From a bacterium (GTDB taxonomy: Bacteria; UBP14; UBA6098; 4484-93): 41,343 nt of DNA. Shown piece after piece: positions 956 through 19,581 of the stretch. Where the stretch lies: positions 1 through 41,343 of the forward strand of contig JAGGUN010000023.1 in NCBI GenBank assembly GCA_021158465.1. Direction: 5' to 3'. Every line of letters starts with the position of its first letter. Positions within the stretch are counted from its first letter, which is position 1. The translations under genes and the position numbers were made by a program. Below the pieces are notes generated by a model that did no database searches, was not told the DNA's origin, and worked only from the letters and a program-made list of their open reading frames with translations.

Positions 956-1378
956 TCAGGCGAGCAGGAAAAGCCCCGTTCTGTCATCGAGCTTTCTTAT
1001 GAACTCACCCTCACGGGGGAAGAGGAATATCTCCGCTGTCGCAGACACCTTGCCCGAGAAGAGATGACCACATCTCGCATTGTAGTCCACATCGCCTATC
1101 ACAATATGCGTATGAATCACCAGCTCGCCTGTCTCGAACTTCACCGATATGTTTCCCGAGAGGGTTGCTATCTCATAATCACCGGGAAACTCACGCTTTC
1201 TATACCTTTTCTCTGCCACATCGAAATAGCCGAGGGTCGGAGATGCTATCGAACCGATGCCAAAAAAGAAGCCAGATCTTATCCCGTTCTCCTTTGCAAA
1301 CTGCTCAATCTTCTCGTTTATATCCTCCCCTGCCTCGATATGGAGAAGATAACCATCGTCAAACTTCCTTGCCAGCAT
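956..1378 (-). CDS. PCC/DUF296 domain protein
   Basis: A 140-residue protein that is a single PCC (plants and prokaryotes conserved, formerly DUF296) domain. The visible family features are the opening MLARKFDDGYLLHIEAGED, the GIRSGFFFGIGS turn, and the histidine motif HTHIVIGDVDYNARCGHL whose histidines bind metal in bacterial and archaeal members. In plants the domain accompanies AT-hook DNA-binding segments; in prokaryotes it stands alone as a trimer and its function is not settled. No AT-hook is present here. The ATG overlaps the last 20 bp of the upstream ATPase-like gene, so translation is probably coupled. Family identification is firm, cellular role unknown. Confidence 0.88.
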   Translation of the reverse strand: MLARKFDDGYLLHIEAGEDINEKIEQFAKENGIRSGFFFGIGSIASPTLGYFDVAEKRYRKREFPGDYEIATLSGNISVKFETGELVIHTHIVIGDVDYNARCGHLFSGKVSATAEIFLFPREGEFIRKLDDRTGLFLLA

Positions 1379-3947
1379 CGGTTACTCCTTCCTTTTCTCT
1401 GGTTCTTACACTCCGAATGAGCAGAACAAAGCAAGCGGTTACAATTCCAAGCAGAAGGCACACTACAACCTTACTTGGCTCGATTCGATATATACCGTAA
1501 TGCGTTAGATTAAAAGGTGAGAGCACAACAGCTACATTCAAGGCGATAATACCGAGTGAAATCCAGAGGAATCTGTTATTCCTCCAGATACTCCTTGCCA
1601 CCCGCTTCACACTCGAGCCATAAAGCGGGAATATCGAGAACCCCGATGCAAAAATAGCGAGGACGAACGCAAGGGTTCTCGACTGGTTAAGGTAGCCCGT
1701 CCCTTTGAGGTTCCACAGGAAGAGAAAGAACACCTCAAGGGCAAATAGGGCACCAAGAAGCAGTCCATCGGTGAACGGATGGAATTCCCAGAGCGGCTTC
1801 TCATCGTAGGAGGATTCCAACGAAAGAAAGGTTGCCAAAGGGAGGATTACGAACAGTCCGAGCCAGACCATATGGTATGGGGAAAGTATCGGATACGGTA
1901 TGGAGAAAAGCGACAACCCAAGCATAGAGCCAGTTAAACCGAGCGAGACGAAGAAAAGATACAGGAGCAACTTCTCCACCCGATACAACGAGAACTCCGC
2001 GTCCTTTAACAGAGGAAACGAAGAAGGCTTGTTTTCTACCTTCACATCGGCTATCTCTCCCGCGATACACAAGCCTCTGTCGTAATCCGCAATGGAGATA
2101 TCAGATATCCGCATCGGCTCGAAGTCGGAGATACCAGTCCCCACATAAGCAAGCCTGTAACCCGACTCCTTCAGCATAGCAACAACCCTGAGCCTACCCC
2201 TTTCCCCGAGGTCAGGAAGAAAAAGAATATCGGTATCCTCTATCCTATCCACAACAGTGTCCAGCTCCTCCTTCTCCACTACCGCCACCGCTTCAGGGAG
2301 CTTCGGGACAAACCCAGCCTCCTGAAAAAGAACAACCTTCTTCCCGCCCTTTACAAACTGTTCGATACTACTATATATTTGCGGGTTTAGCGCATACCTT
2401 ATCCCAAGAACTCCCACAAATATCAAACCTTTTTCCTCCGTATCCTGTGGATGAGTGATCCGGTATGCGAACCCAATCTTCTCTACACCTGCCGATGAAA
2501 TATTGGTGATCTTCTCATGGAGCTTATCCCTCAGCGTTATATCAAGCCTGTAGACATCCCGATTGAGATAAGCATACTCACACAAGTTAAGAAGCCTTTT
2601 TGCATCTCCCTTTAAGACCGAGATCGTATCCTGTCCTGCTTTGAAATCCGCCCGGATACCTCTTACATCATTCACTCTCTCAAGTAGAAGAAGCTCAAGC
2701 CCACCGATAAGCTCCTTTCGCATACCCGTTTTCTTAATAAGTTCAAATATTCCAATCTCCTTCCTCGAGCCCCAAATAATGCCATCCTTCGAATAGATAA
2801 GGTTCGATAGCGACGCCATCTTAAGAAGCAGTCCCAGAGAATCCCTTGTGTAGTCGTCAAATATCTCACCATCGACGGTGAACAACTCATCCAGTTCAAC
2901 CTTCTTGGGGTCAACGGTTATCTTCTTCCCGTTGGCAACAGCAGAGACAACCCCTTCAGCTCCCTTCAGGAGGAAATTGTCTGAATCGATACAGATGCAG
3001 TCGATGCTATCCATTTTGCACAGGAGCTCAGGGTAGCGCATATAAAACCCCCTCCTCCCTGCTCTGACAAATGAGGAAAGAATAGCAAAAAAGGCAGGCA
3101 CAGGAAAGATTATACCAAATGTTGCAGCAAGGAGACAGGCAAGATTACCGACGATGTTCTCAATATCTACACCCTTTACCCAACCGGCAAAAAAGGTGAC
3201 AAGGATGACAAACATAACAGAATAATAGACCTTCGGTGGTATAGGAAAGATAGTCGAGAAAGCCTTTGGCTTCTCGTATTGATACTGAGGGAGATGACCA
3301 AGCATCGTGTTCTCACCGGTTGCAACCACAATCCCGAGAGCCCTCCCAGACTTCACCTGTGTACCAGCAAAGAGCATATTCCTCTGCTGTCCAGGAGGGG
3401 TATCTTCCGCCAACGGCTCAGGAGATTTGAAAACCTCTGCCTTCCCCTCGAACAGATTACTCTCATCCACAGTGAGCAAAAACGAGCAGAATATCCTGAC
3501 ATTAGCCGGAACCCTGTCCCCCGAGAGTAGCTCGAGTACATCCCCAACAACAATATCCGTTACCGGAACAGAAACAAATCCACCGTCACGGAGGACACTC
3601 GCCCTTGGCAGAAAGCGTTCCTTGAGGGAAAGAAAAAGATAAGTGATCTCGGTAAAGTAAAACCGAAAGACAGGATAGAGAACCCCTCCAACAAAAAAGA
3701 TAACAGAAAGTGTGGGTTTTTTATCGATATAAAATAGGATGGAAATAAATATAGGTAAGATGGAATGCAGCACCTCCTTAACGAATCTTCTTCTCGGGAA
3801 CTGCCACTCCTCAGGCGATATGTTCTCCCCCTGATGAACAAGCCTCTTCTTCGCCTCCTCCTTGGATAAACCGAACGCTATATTTGTCTGGAGAAACCGC
3901 TCTATCTCCTCCACAGTGAAGGAGTGCCATGGGATATCCCAGTTCAT
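1359..3947 (-). CDS. degenerate P-type ATPase homologue (probable pseudoenzyme)
   Basis: This 862-residue protein has the layout of a P2-type cation ATPase: an N-terminal cation-ATPase domain (1-60), membrane pairs near 62-105 and 240-295, an actuator domain (115-220), P and N domains (310-640) and six hydrophobic C-terminal segments (655-845). The catalytic motifs are eroded. VDESxLTGES reads VDESNLFEGKA (160-170); the M4 PEGLP motif reads FPVPA (281-285); ICSDKTGTLT reads ICIDSDNFLL (318-327), keeping Asp321 but not Lys-Thr-Gly-Thr; KGAPE reads KGDAK; GDGxND reads GTGISD (603-608). Phosphorylation and transport seem unlikely. The intact 862-codon frame, the ATGA overlap with surE upstream and the conserved topology argue against a decaying pseudogene. 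A regulatory or scaffold membrane protein is inferred; partner and ligand unknown. Confidence 0.85.
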   Translation of the reverse strand: MNWDIPWHSFTVEEIERFLQTNIAFGLSKEEAKKRLVHQGENISPEEWQFPRRRFVKEVLHSILPIFISILFYIDKKPTLSVIFFVGGVLYPVFRFYFTEITYLFLSLKERFLPRASVLRDGGFVSVPVTDIVVGDVLELLSGDRVPANVRIFCSFLLTVDESNLFEGKAEVFKSPEPLAEDTPPGQQRNMLFAGTQVKSGRALGIVVATGENTMLGHLPQYQYEKPKAFSTIFPIPPKVYYSVMFVILVTFFAGWVKGVDIENIVGNLACLLAATFGIIFPVPAFFAILSSFVRAGRRGFYMRYPELLCKMDSIDCICIDSDNFLLKGAEGVVSAVANGKKITVDPKKVELDELFTVDGEIFDDYTRDSLGLLLKMASLSNLIYSKDGIIWGSRKEIGIFELIKKTGMRKELIGGLELLLLERVNDVRGIRADFKAGQDTISVLKGDAKRLLNLCEYAYLNRDVYRLDITLRDKLHEKITNISSAGVEKIGFAYRITHPQDTEEKGLIFVGVLGIRYALNPQIYSSIEQFVKGGKKVVLFQEAGFVPKLPEAVAVVEKEELDTVVDRIEDTDILFLPDLGERGRLRVVAMLKESGYRLAYVGTGISDFEPMRISDISIADYDRGLCIAGEIADVKVENKPSSFPLLKDAEFSLYRVEKLLLYLFFVSLGLTGSMLGLSLFSIPYPILSPYHMVWLGLFVILPLATFLSLESSYDEKPLWEFHPFTDGLLLGALFALEVFFLFLWNLKGTGYLNQSRTLAFVLAIFASGFSIFPLYGSSVKRVARSIWRNNRFLWISLGIIALNVAVVLSPFNLTHYGIYRIEPSKVVVCLLLGIVTACFVLLIRSVRTREKEGVTDAGKEV

Positions 3948-15691: not shown

Positions 15692-18600
15692 CTATTTCAG
15701 ATACAGCATACGCCTTACCTGATCTTCTCCCCTAAAGCTCAACTTGTAGTAGTAGATACCGGATGGTGCAGTCTCACCTGTCGATAGCCTGCCATCCCAG
15801 ATAACGGCGTGCTCACCTGCGAGAAGCTCACCATCAACAAGGGTAGCCACCCTCTCCCCGAGCAGATTGTAGATGCCAAGTGTCACATAACCTTTATCCG
15901 GTATGGAGAACTTTATCTGTGTGCTTGAGTTAAACGGATTGGGAATATTCTGCCCAAGCGAAAATCCGAGAGGATGAGTATACTGGATGAGCATCTTCTC
16001 ACCTGCAAAGCTACGGATATCGAGCGAGCGGATACCAACTGTGCCGTTACCGCTATATCTCACCACAATAAGCGTTCCAGAGGATTTCGTGAAGGGAGAA
16101 CTCTCAGATAGTCTCGCAAAGGATACCTCGTTCCCCTCGACAAGAACAACAGGACTGGCTTTATAGGAAAGAAGCTCCCCTGCCTCGACGGATGTAATCT
16201 CAACCCCTGACGGGATATCGAGCAGGATGTGTCCCATACCAACGCAGGATGCCGAGCGAAGATAAAGAGTCATCTCACCAGGAGAGTTCTCAACAGCAAG
16301 CACAGGAGAAGCGGGAACCTCCCGGAGGATGGTATGCGAGAAATGCCACCAGTTCCACATCCTTGTGAAGACGAACAGGTCTTCATAGTTGACCGCACCA
16401 TCAGGGGAAGGCAGAAGGCGAGGCACTGTGCCAGTCGCAGGTCCCACATCACCCGACTCATCGTTTACCGGTTGCCAGTATGTCGAGAGCAGGACAAAGT
16501 CGCGCAGGTCTATATCGCCATCACAGTCGAAATCGCATAGCATACAGCCCTCATGGTCGGTGCCATCACCAACCAGCCTTATATAACCGGTATATCCCGG
16601 AACAGTATCAACCGGCTCATCATCCATCGTGCGAAGGTCAATTGTGCTGAACTCGAGCTCACTCGTCGGGTCATCGGCAATCGTTGCGAATCTGAGTGTG
16701 GCAAGCACACCGTAACCGCTGACACCTGAATCCTCCGCGCGACGAGCCATAGCAAGGTCAACCTGCCCCGAAAAATATGTCGGAATAAAGCTCGGTGGCT
16801 CGGGAGCAGCCCTTCCGAGAAATTCACCTACCTCCGCAGAAACCAGGGCAACCTTTGATGTGTCATAATCAACCACAATATGAGCCATACCAAACTGCGG
16901 AAGAGAGATACCGTATATATCAACCCTGAATGTGTCGCCGTTAAATGTGAATGTCGTCTCCGGGTCGAAGAACAGTCCAGCCTCTCCGACACGATATGTC
17001 CCCTCATCGGAACCCGTCAGCCCCTCATACTCCGCCTCGACCAGAACATAGCGAAGCCTGCCATCGGGAACAGGATTGTGCGTGGTATAGGTTATGATAT
17101 ATTGAGTGGAGAGCAAATCACCTATCATATCGATGATGGACGAGAAATCCTCTCCGATGTCAAACCAGAAGCCACCGGTGGCATCCGCAATGTTATGATA
17201 ACCAGCGATATCGGGTCCGACAACGCTGACAATCGCACCGAACGACTCACAATCCTCGATAACCTCATCCAGCGTTCGAGAGGTTACCGCATCATCCTCG
17301 TGATAGCCAGCATCGGTTATAACAACAAATATCTTCTGTGCGAAGGGACGATAAGAGAGGTCGAACGCTCGTTCTATTGCATCGAGCTGGTTCTCTGGAC
17401 TGTCTCCACCACCTGTCGCAGCCAATCCCTCAATCCAGGTCTTGAACTCGTCTGCATCGGAGGTGAACTCGTAGAAACCTCGTATCTCATCTCCGTATGT
17501 GATAAGCGCGAGTTGGTAGTCGAGTCCGCGGGATTCGAGCGTGTCGGCAAAAGCCTTCGCCCTCTCCTTCAAGCCTGTGATGTAAGGTCCCATACTGCCT
17601 GTTACATCGAAGACAAAGACGATATCAGCAGCGCCACCCGAGCCTGTCGTCATACGCCCGACAGTGATAGGCTCCTCCAAAGTACCGTCCTCGTGAACAG
17701 TGAAATTGTCCTCATCGAGACCGTTTATCGAGCGGTGAGAGGTCGGGTCATACACCATACAGTAAGCGCGAATTACAGGAAAATCGGATGGGTCGACGGT
17801 TGTAACAACAACATTGAGAGATTCCGGGGTGAACGCCGCCTCAGGGATATATATCCGGCGCGTAACATAGTTCGAATCGGTCGTGGAGGAACGAACAATC
17901 ACAGTAAATTCAAATGTATCGGAAACAGTAGGAGGAGTTGCCAGCACACTCCAGGAAGCAGAACCTATTTCACCGGGTTCAAGACTATCCGGGTCGAGTG
18001 CCTGAACAGTCGAACCGCCGACAACACTCAAAACAGACGGTAAAACAATTTCTACCTCACAGTTCTCGGCAACCTCACCCGTATTGTTGGTGACGAGAAC
18101 ATTTATATCGAAAGGATTGGGTGTAAGATTGCCAAGAGTGTCAACCGTAAGCTCCAGCGGAGCTGTGACATTAAGAGAAAGGTCACCGGTCACAACGGAG
18201 CCAGCTCCGAGGCCATAAAATGTCGATACCTCACGAGAACCACCCGGGGGAATACTAACAGGATACCACCACAGGAGAACCGCACTGTCATCATAAGGGT
18301 CACCGGATATCTCGTAATCCCACTCAACACCGGTGTAAGTCCACCAGGGACCAAGACAGAACCTATCGGGCACAACGGCTCCAGAACCTACAAGCGTCCC
18401 CTGAGCAACAAGGAGTGAGTCCGGCTGTGTCGGAGATTCCTCAAAAGCCTGCCAGTAGTCGGGAATATCCGGATAGAAAAACTCCTGCTCAACACCGGCA
18501 TACCCAAAACTTGTGGATATCGGTGCAGCATCATTGTGGTTGATCATTGTATCCATCTCAAGGAGCAATCCCACGGAAACAGAAGATGAACCCCTGTTGC

Positions 18601-19027
18601 GAATAATGTATCTTATCCATATCGTATCGTCGTTGCCTGTGGTGGAGCCGCGGGTTATCTGCGTTACCTGTGTGATGTCGATATCAGAGTAGCTGTATGT
18701 AAAATAGACAGCATCGCCATCGATATGAGCCTCGTCGGTCAGAGTTCCTCCAGAGCCAAACCGATAAACCTCCTCGCCTATCTTGACATTCGTATGCGAT
18801 GTCGACCCCTCCGACGGGAAACCGTAAAGCAGACGCCTGCCATCCGCCGTCCCTATGGTAAAACGACCATCCGAGTTGCTCACAGCAACGGATATATAAT
18901 CGTTTGAAAGTGTTACCTTGCCGGTATCCCAGCCCCTCTGAGCAACGAGCGCCTTCCTGTCAGACGCAGAAAGGGAAACAGAAAGCACCAGCAAAAATAT
19001 TATCCCGAAAAACACAATCCTTTTCAT
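15692..19027 (-). CDS. secreted vWA/cohesin/dockerin protein with C-terminal sorting domain
   Basis: A 1,111-residue surface protein. In order: signal peptide (1-21); beta-rich region (25-400) including a conserved-repeat-like segment near 290-385; a von Willebrand factor A domain (about 465-645) with MIDAS residues FDVTGS, TGGGDSPE and ITDAGYH; a cohesin-like domain (about 685-820); a dockerin-like pair of calcium loops, DFDCDGDIDLRDF (832-844) and PDGAVNYEDLF; a second cohesin-like region (905-1010); and a type IX-style sorting domain from LGQNIPNPFNSS to the terminal RMLYLK. The ATG at 19027 is preferred over a GTG at 19036 because GGGAGGTG lies 5 bases before it. The gene directly follows the cohesin lipoprotein gene. 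Adhesion or matrix assembly at the cell surface is inferred. Confidence 0.88.
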   Translation of the reverse strand: MKRIVFFGIIFLLVLSVSLSASDRKALVAQRGWDTGKVTLSNDYISVAVSNSDGRFTIGTADGRRLLYGFPSEGSTSHTNVKIGEEVYRFGSGGTLTDEAHIDGDAVYFTYSYSDIDITQVTQITRGSTTGNDDTIWIRYIIRNRGSSSVSVGLLLEMDTMINHNDAAPISTSFGYAGVEQEFFYPDIPDYWQAFEESPTQPDSLLVAQGTLVGSGAVVPDRFCLGPWWTYTGVEWDYEISGDPYDDSAVLLWWYPVSIPPGGSREVSTFYGLGAGSVVTGDLSLNVTAPLELTVDTLGNLTPNPFDINVLVTNNTGEVAENCEVEIVLPSVLSVVGGSTVQALDPDSLEPGEIGSASWSVLATPPTVSDTFEFTVIVRSSTTDSNYVTRRIYIPEAAFTPESLNVVVTTVDPSDFPVIRAYCMVYDPTSHRSINGLDEDNFTVHEDGTLEEPITVGRMTTGSGGAADIVFVFDVTGSMGPYITGLKERAKAFADTLESRGLDYQLALITYGDEIRGFYEFTSDADEFKTWIEGLAATGGGDSPENQLDAIERAFDLSYRPFAQKIFVVITDAGYHEDDAVTSRTLDEVIEDCESFGAIVSVVGPDIAGYHNIADATGGFWFDIGEDFSSIIDMIGDLLSTQYIITYTTHNPVPDGRLRYVLVEAEYEGLTGSDEGTYRVGEAGLFFDPETTFTFNGDTFRVDIYGISLPQFGMAHIVVDYDTSKVALVSAEVGEFLGRAAPEPPSFIPTYFSGQVDLAMARRAEDSGVSGYGVLATLRFATIADDPTSELEFSTIDLRTMDDEPVDTVPGYTGYIRLVGDGTDHEGCMLCDFDCDGDIDLRDFVLLSTYWQPVNDESGDVGPATGTVPRLLPSPDGAVNYEDLFVFTRMWNWWHFSHTILREVPASPVLAVENSPGEMTLYLRSASCVGMGHILLDIPSGVEITSVEAGELLSYKASPVVLVEGNEVSFARLSESSPFTKSSGTLIVVRYSGNGTVGIRSLDIRSFAGEKMLIQYTHPLGFSLGQNIPNPFNSSTQIKFSIPDKGYVTLGIYNLLGERVATLVDGELLAGEHAVIWDGRLSTGETAPSGIYYYKLSFRGEDQVRRMLYLK

Positions 19028-19032
19028 CTCTC

Positions 19033-19581
19033 TCACCTCCCGGAAGAAATGGTTATATTTCCACTCTCCGTCTCGACATCGGGAATAAGCTCCGCCGAAC
19101 TGTTGTAAAGCCCGAGGTCGGAATCGGAGGCGTTGTCAACAGAAAGGAGAAGCTCAGCCGTCCCAGGAGAAAGGGCGCGGAAAGTTATCTTCCCTATGCC
19201 TCTCGCATTCCCAGACATATCCGAAACGGAAGCAGAAGCAGGAAGTATCCCAAGGACAAGCTTTACATACCCCTCATCATTGTCGCTGGTGAATGTCAAC
19301 TGGTTTACTGCACCAGAGTTAGATGTCAGGAAATCATCCTCCCGACCAAGCTCTACCACCTCAAGCTTCTCGCTGTCAAAATTGAGCCGAACTCCAACTC
19401 CAACAAGATCCTCAACATACCTCAACGCAATCTCAATATCAAATACCTCACCAACGACCGCAGAGTAAGAGGAGGGAGATATAAGAACTGCCGGGCTATT
19501 CTCCTCAGGTTCTGCGCTCTTCTTGCTACAAGAGACAACTATTAGCCCAAGAACAATAAACAGCAAAACTAATTTCCTCAC
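19033..19581 (-). CDS. cohesin-domain lipoprotein
   Basis: A 182-residue lipoprotein: signal peptide with lipobox VVSC (Cys18), a short charged linker, then one cohesin-type domain of about 140 residues (VGEVFDIEIALRYVEDLVGV, RLNFDSEKLEVVELG, ARGIGKITFRALSPG). Cohesin domains bind dockerins in cellulosomes, and similar beta-sandwiches occur in many FCB surface proteins without a known dockerin. Translation starts at GTG 19581, with GGAGG 5 bases upstream. A promoter lies at 19628-19655. The stop lies 5 bp before the ATG of the next gene, which encodes a dockerin-like module, so the pair may associate at the outer membrane. Confidence 0.88.
   Translation of the reverse strand: MRKLVLLFIVLGLIVVSCSKKSAEPEENSPAVLISPSSYSAVVGEVFDIEIALRYVEDLVGVGVRLNFDSEKLEVVELGREDDFLTSNSGAVNQLTFTSDNDEGYVKLVLGILPASASVSDMSGNARGIGKITFRALSPGTAELLLSVDNASDSDLGLYNSSAELIPDVETESGNITISSGR

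Follow-up and report, generated by a model that had tools for sequence, protein, structure and literature searches.

The window (the whole 41,343-nucleotide stretch of DNA analysed here) encodes a P-type ATPase homologue; very probably the gene is not broken but codes for a former pump that has taken on a new job. Catalytic residues were lost in this protein and in all three of the relatives that we found, so that the family has four altered members out of four. Because the relatives are altered too, selection acts on the gene and the members are confined in their distribution, we regard these proteins as a phylum-restricted pseudo-P-type ATPase family under selection. We see the family as a branch of the P-type ATPases, in a bacterial phylum, that is made up of pseudoenzymes. 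We consider it highly probable that the protein is a dead pump under selection, and the explanation as a whole, with no partner named, is likely.

Full-length P2A homology and the altered motifs

The pseudo-pump gene begins with ATG and its frame is unbroken over 862 codons, as a preliminary description of this DNA had noted. All three Pfam matches of the product (E1-E2_ATPase, 3.6e-18; Cation_ATPase_N, 6.4e-6; Cation_ATPase_C, 1e-6) lie above the curated cut-offs, and human SPCA1 was aligned by phmmer to residues 11-852 with an E-value of 1.6e-32. The best NCBIfam model was the PMR1-type Ca2+-ATPase TIGR01522, at 109.9 bits against a cut-off of 798.3. Judged by its sequence, the protein is a homologue of P2A Ca2+-ATPases (SPCA/PMR1, LMCA1) over its full length, and homology to the A, P, N, and membrane domains of P-type ATPases is present in both sequence and fold matches.

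AlphaFold2 run on 13 aligned sequences produced a P-type fold (pLDDT 68.8, pTM 0.56), and the best Foldseek matches to this model were SPCA1, LMCA1, and the Na,K-ATPase, with query TM-scores of up to 0.77 among the matches listed. The alignment included pumps from viral contigs, in which we found pumps with DKTGT only and no pseudo-pump. In the model some ten long helices are compatible with a membrane, and M4 is interrupted, in agreement with the earlier statement that the membrane layout was kept. Because ordinary pumps were part of its alignment, the model is no independent proof of the fold, for which support comes from the full-length sequence homology.

The functional motifs DKTGT, TGES, TGD, DPPR, and GDGxND of P-type ATPases have no match in the pseudo-pump (Table 1). 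The preliminary description had reported that Asp321 was kept while the following Lys-Thr-Gly-Thr had become Ser-Asp-Asn-Phe, and that TGES, PEGL, KGA-PE, and GDGxND were changed; the alignment bears out each of these readings, and together with the full-length homology it supports well the proposal of a pseudo-pump with a retained fold. The losses extend further than had been described, to DPPR, TGD, and the cation-binding residues. In what we take to be SERCA numbering, assigned to alignment columns, R560 is replaced by Glu and Phe487 is missing, and the cation ligands are changed in M4 and M5 (E309 to Ile, N768 to Ser, E771 to Leu) as well as in M6 (N796 to Gly, T799 to Val, D800 to Ile). 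A set of 49 ordinary P2 ATPases has 77 columns with a constancy of 95% or more; the pseudo-pump keeps 27 of these, while the lowest ordinary P2 ATPase keeps 61 and the median is 77, a count that somewhat favours the ordinary pumps as the columns were defined on those same 49 sequences. D321, a basic residue at position 585, and D608 are still present.

Table 1. Features of the pseudo-pump locus, and surE loci of a sister family (f4) given by their own locus coordinates
Feature	Position	Strand	Remarks
PCC-domain protein, 140 aa	956..1378	minus	overlaps pseudo-pump end by 20 bases
Pseudo-P2A-type ATPase, 862 aa	1359..3947	minus	Pfam, phmmer, motif alignment
M6 NxxTD to GLFVI, residues 697-701	1845..1859	minus	alignment
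GDGxND to GTGISD, residues 603-608	2124..2141	minus	alignment
TGD region lost (FQE, 541-543), deletion of about a dozen residues	2319..2327	minus	alignment
DPPR to YALN, residues 518-521	2385..2396	minus	alignment
KGAPE to KGDAK, residues 446-450	2598..2612	minus	alignment
DKTGT to DSDNF, residues 321-325	2973..2987	minus	alignment
M4 PEGLP to GIIFP, residues 278-282	3102..3116	minus	alignment
TGES to FEGK, residues 166-169	3441..3452	minus	alignment; FEGG in genus orthologue
surE, 255 aa	3944..4711	minus	overlaps pseudo-pump start by 4 bases (ATGA)
Conserved ORF upstream of surE, 111 aa	4808..5143	minus	no Pfam match; dN/dS 0.125, two genus genomes
f4 surE and antiporter, L076	1336-3130
f4 surE and antiporter, L077	4593-6387
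f4 surE and antiporter, L078	5634-7431

Selection on the gene within the genus

Zixibacteria bacterium 4484_93 is the single other genome of the genus in our comparison, and together with the source genome it forms the branch that we call f1. Its contig NATO01000107.1 carries an orthologue that is 86% identical, exactly 862 residues long, and free of indels, with DSDNF, GIIFP, and GTGISD identical and the gene order the same. Purifying selection acts on the f1 pseudo-pump. Between the two genus genomes its dN/dS (NG86) is about 0.20, in line with the check that had been proposed for relatives, and that of surE is 0.075. When the 297 observed nucleotide changes were placed at random, only 6 of 500 simulated genes were free of stops, and the 118 amino-acid changes observed compare with a minimum of 172 among the 500.

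These results bear on whether the gene is decaying into a pseudogene or was misassembled. The very long f1 branch in the tree would fit decay, but an independent genome agrees with the source sequence, there are no stops or indels, and an altered motif is conserved in a second branch of the family (f2) whose two members are 39% identical. On the strength of the dN/dS, the neutral simulation, and this conservation, we rejected the pseudogene reading, which is extremely improbable. Restored motifs in homologues combined with a frameshift or decay here, the pattern that the preliminary description had named as contrary evidence, were not what we found, as the frame is intact and the orthologue equally altered.

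Synonymous divergence drops along the pseudo-pump gene: it is about 0.6 where the gene starts (5' end), 0.06 at its 3' end, and 0.04 in the PCC gene (positions 956-2000 against 5300-6290 of L031). The gradient suggests either a recombination tract or an unrecognised constraint at the nucleotide level. It also affects how the membrane domain is read, where a passive pathway (a channel or lipid scramblase working without ATP) could be envisaged: the membrane segments in residues 641-862 are 91% identical between the two f1 genomes, and a lipid has been seen in the membrane domain of TMEM94 (PMC12134183). Low synonymous divergence in the same stretch explains part of this high identity, however, and the f1 cation ligands are now hydrophobic, so that a passive pathway is very unlikely.

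Relatives, distribution and the surE locus

The search for homologues called for in the preliminary description returned, besides the genus orthologue and its identically placed motif changes, distant relatives that occupy the same locus and whose catalytic residues are altered as well. Two genomes in another family of the class (f2: G005 and G002) encode divergent pseudo-pumps that can be aligned with each other over 820 columns and are 24% and 21% identical to the source protein. Their acceptor Asp is replaced by Asn within a common I-N-L-G-D-L, TGES reads RGES or RGDS, and GDGVND reads GLEPFD or GTNPLL. KGAPE, the Pro-Glu of M4, and part of the cation site are retained in f2, whereas all the Ca2+-ATPase cation ligands of M4, M5, and M6 that we tested are replaced in f1. 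For f2 the sign of selection is conservation at 39% identity.

In a profile search of 385 genomes, mostly of different families, the members searched scored 1307-1435 bits and everything else at most 449. The best non-member matches that were fetched, to which the motif check was limited, carry DKTGT and GDGxND. No family member outside the phylum was seen among about 370 sampled genomes by this search and the motifs of the best matches, and we rejected a wider spread of the family on account of the gap between 1307 and 449 bits. Within the 17-genome phylum, PF00122 detected the four pseudo-pumps and one ordinary pump (in G005). Separately, 13 of the 17 phylum genomes have no PF00122 match at all, and all 14 control genomes have one.

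The f1 and f2 members form one group in the tree (support 91/94). This join carries a long-branch warning, and the losses in f1 and f2 may for this reason be independent; placed alone, each pseudo branch falls outside the ordinary pumps at an unresolved position. Two residues are common to all four pseudo-pumps and absent in 49 ordinary pumps, whereas 21 control pairings gave 0-1 such residues. A common origin is argued for most strongly by the position after surE, although independent loss from a shared ordinary ancestor at the surE locus may be an alternative.

The gene adjoins surE in all four members, while the PCC gene adjoins the pseudo-pump in the f1 members only. Coupling to surE and the PCC gene had been claimed, and the gene overlaps stand: besides the shared ATGA, the start of the PCC gene sits inside the ATPase frame, preceded by AGGAG. 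Translational coupling itself we infer from these overlaps. Both f2 loci (L048 in G005, L049 in G002) run through polyprenyl synthase, dxs, surE, and pseudo-pump to an elbB-like gene, with the pseudo-pump directly following surE. In the sister family f4, a Na+/Ca2+ antiporter-family gene comes after surE and abuts or overlaps it. Most genomes of f3, a label assigned by eye, have a dehydratase/reductase-like gene in this place, and when we read by eye the start of the ORF that follows surE at 26 loci from other phyla, we recognised no cation transporter. Set against those other phyla, the f4 antiporter and the f1/f2 pseudo-pump indicate that a Ca2+-transporter-like gene follows surE in two forms in the class. 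The idea that the pseudo-pump merely replaced a lost exchanger was unsupported, as a further Na+/Ca2+ exchanger is encoded elsewhere in the f1 and f2 genomes. Farther along the window, the region 15692-19581 includes a 1114-residue protein in which von Willebrand A and FlgD-like domains occur, adjoining a protein with a weak cohesin-domain match.

Possible function and comparison with known P-type systems

In known pumps, the phosphorylation cycle needs the DKTGT phosphorylation loop and the Glu of TGES. Asp-to-Asn mutants of SERCA and the Na,K-ATPase are inactive (PMC13322241). On these grounds we consider pumping unlikely for the f1 protein and very unlikely for the f2 proteins. The family would descend from a P2A-like Ca2+ pump located beside surE, and its members keep the A, P, and N domains together with the membrane body. 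The f1 protein has lost the residues that serve phosphorylation and dephosphorylation, position the nucleotide, and bind cations, and is therefore predicted to be unable to run the Post-Albers cycle. The f2 form, whose acceptor is Asn but which keeps some of the cation site and much of the N domain that binds nucleotide (KGAPE), might bind ATP without hydrolysing it; we infer both the loss of activity and nucleotide sensing in f2.

Selection keeps the protein, and its job should therefore be a non-pumping one. The most likely candidate would be a membrane-anchored partner, co-produced with SurE, that scaffolds or regulates it. Gene order points to this role, which we propose tentatively, and the "sensing or scaffolding" and working link to SurE or the PCC protein put forward in the preliminary description might be read in the same way. 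A fuller version is possible but doubtful: a dead Ca2+ pump recruited for signalling or as a scaffold in connection with SurE, with f2 an ATP-binding, non-hydrolysing sensor and f1 devoid of nucleotide and ion sites, in a graded series of retirement at one locus. If true, such a family would make it possible to test which parts of a P-type pump have roles other than pumping.

The residues still present in f1 (D321, the basic residue at 585, and D608) may support some residual chemistry. The P domain could have turned into a HAD-type phosphohydrolase, as D321-x-D323-N resembles the DxDx motif I of HAD phosphatases. The two f1 genomes share D321, D323, a Lys or Arg at 585, and D608, and the neighbour SurE is itself a phosphatase; the position of the motif II Ser/Thr, though, lies within the deleted stretch, PF00702 has no match, and f2 has no such motif, which makes a phosphohydrolase highly improbable.

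Another reading would be an active non-canonical pump using D321, of the kind proposed for human ERMA/TMEM94 (DKQGIL, GSSANL, no TGES). Conservation of D321 and D608 in f1 would suit it, and one group, which claimed Mg2+ pumping by ERMA, found in a single study that D427N abolished Mg2+ uptake (PMC13322241). In another group's hands TMEM94 had neither ATPase activity nor Mg2+ binding (PMC12134183), and f1 lacks two residues of DKTGT (Lys and Thr), the Glu of TGES, the Thr of TGD, R560, and every cation ligand tested in M4-M6, while the f2 acceptor is Asn. An active pump is thus unlikely.

Pseudo-P-type ATPases have barely been described. We found no work on bacterial ones in the open-access literature, outside of which most subscription papers lie, and the sole well-studied case in the papers searched, TMEM94/ERMA, is disputed. 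As a caution, genes of the present kind should not be annotated as Ca2+ pumps. SPCA1/PMR1 and LMCA1 resemble the pseudo-pump in full-length homology, domain order, and the best NCBIfam model, and are the best solved relatives of both the protein and the family profile, but the pseudo-pump lacks their phosphorylation, dephosphorylation, and cation-site residues. TMEM94/ERMA is the closest precedent, with a P-type architecture, an altered DKTGT, a replaced GDGVND, and no TGES, and SPCA is the nearest fold for both proteins. It differs in being eukaryotic, in keeping the Lys of DKQGIL, in its large CTD3, and in its disputed activity; TMEM94 chains were absent among the best 60 family-profile matches and the best 50 fold matches listed. 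The mycobacterial P6 ATPase CtpE shares with the pseudo-pump an Ile at the M6 Asp of Ca2+ pumps, but retains the M4 PEGL and has been described as an ATPase for Ca2+ uptake. Apicomplexan guanylyl cyclases with a P4-ATPase-like domain offer a P-type module in signalling, as proposed here for the pseudo-pump, although P. falciparum GC-alpha is a fused eukaryotic protein, and the conserved catalytic Asp was chosen for mutation in it as a residue regarded as crucial.
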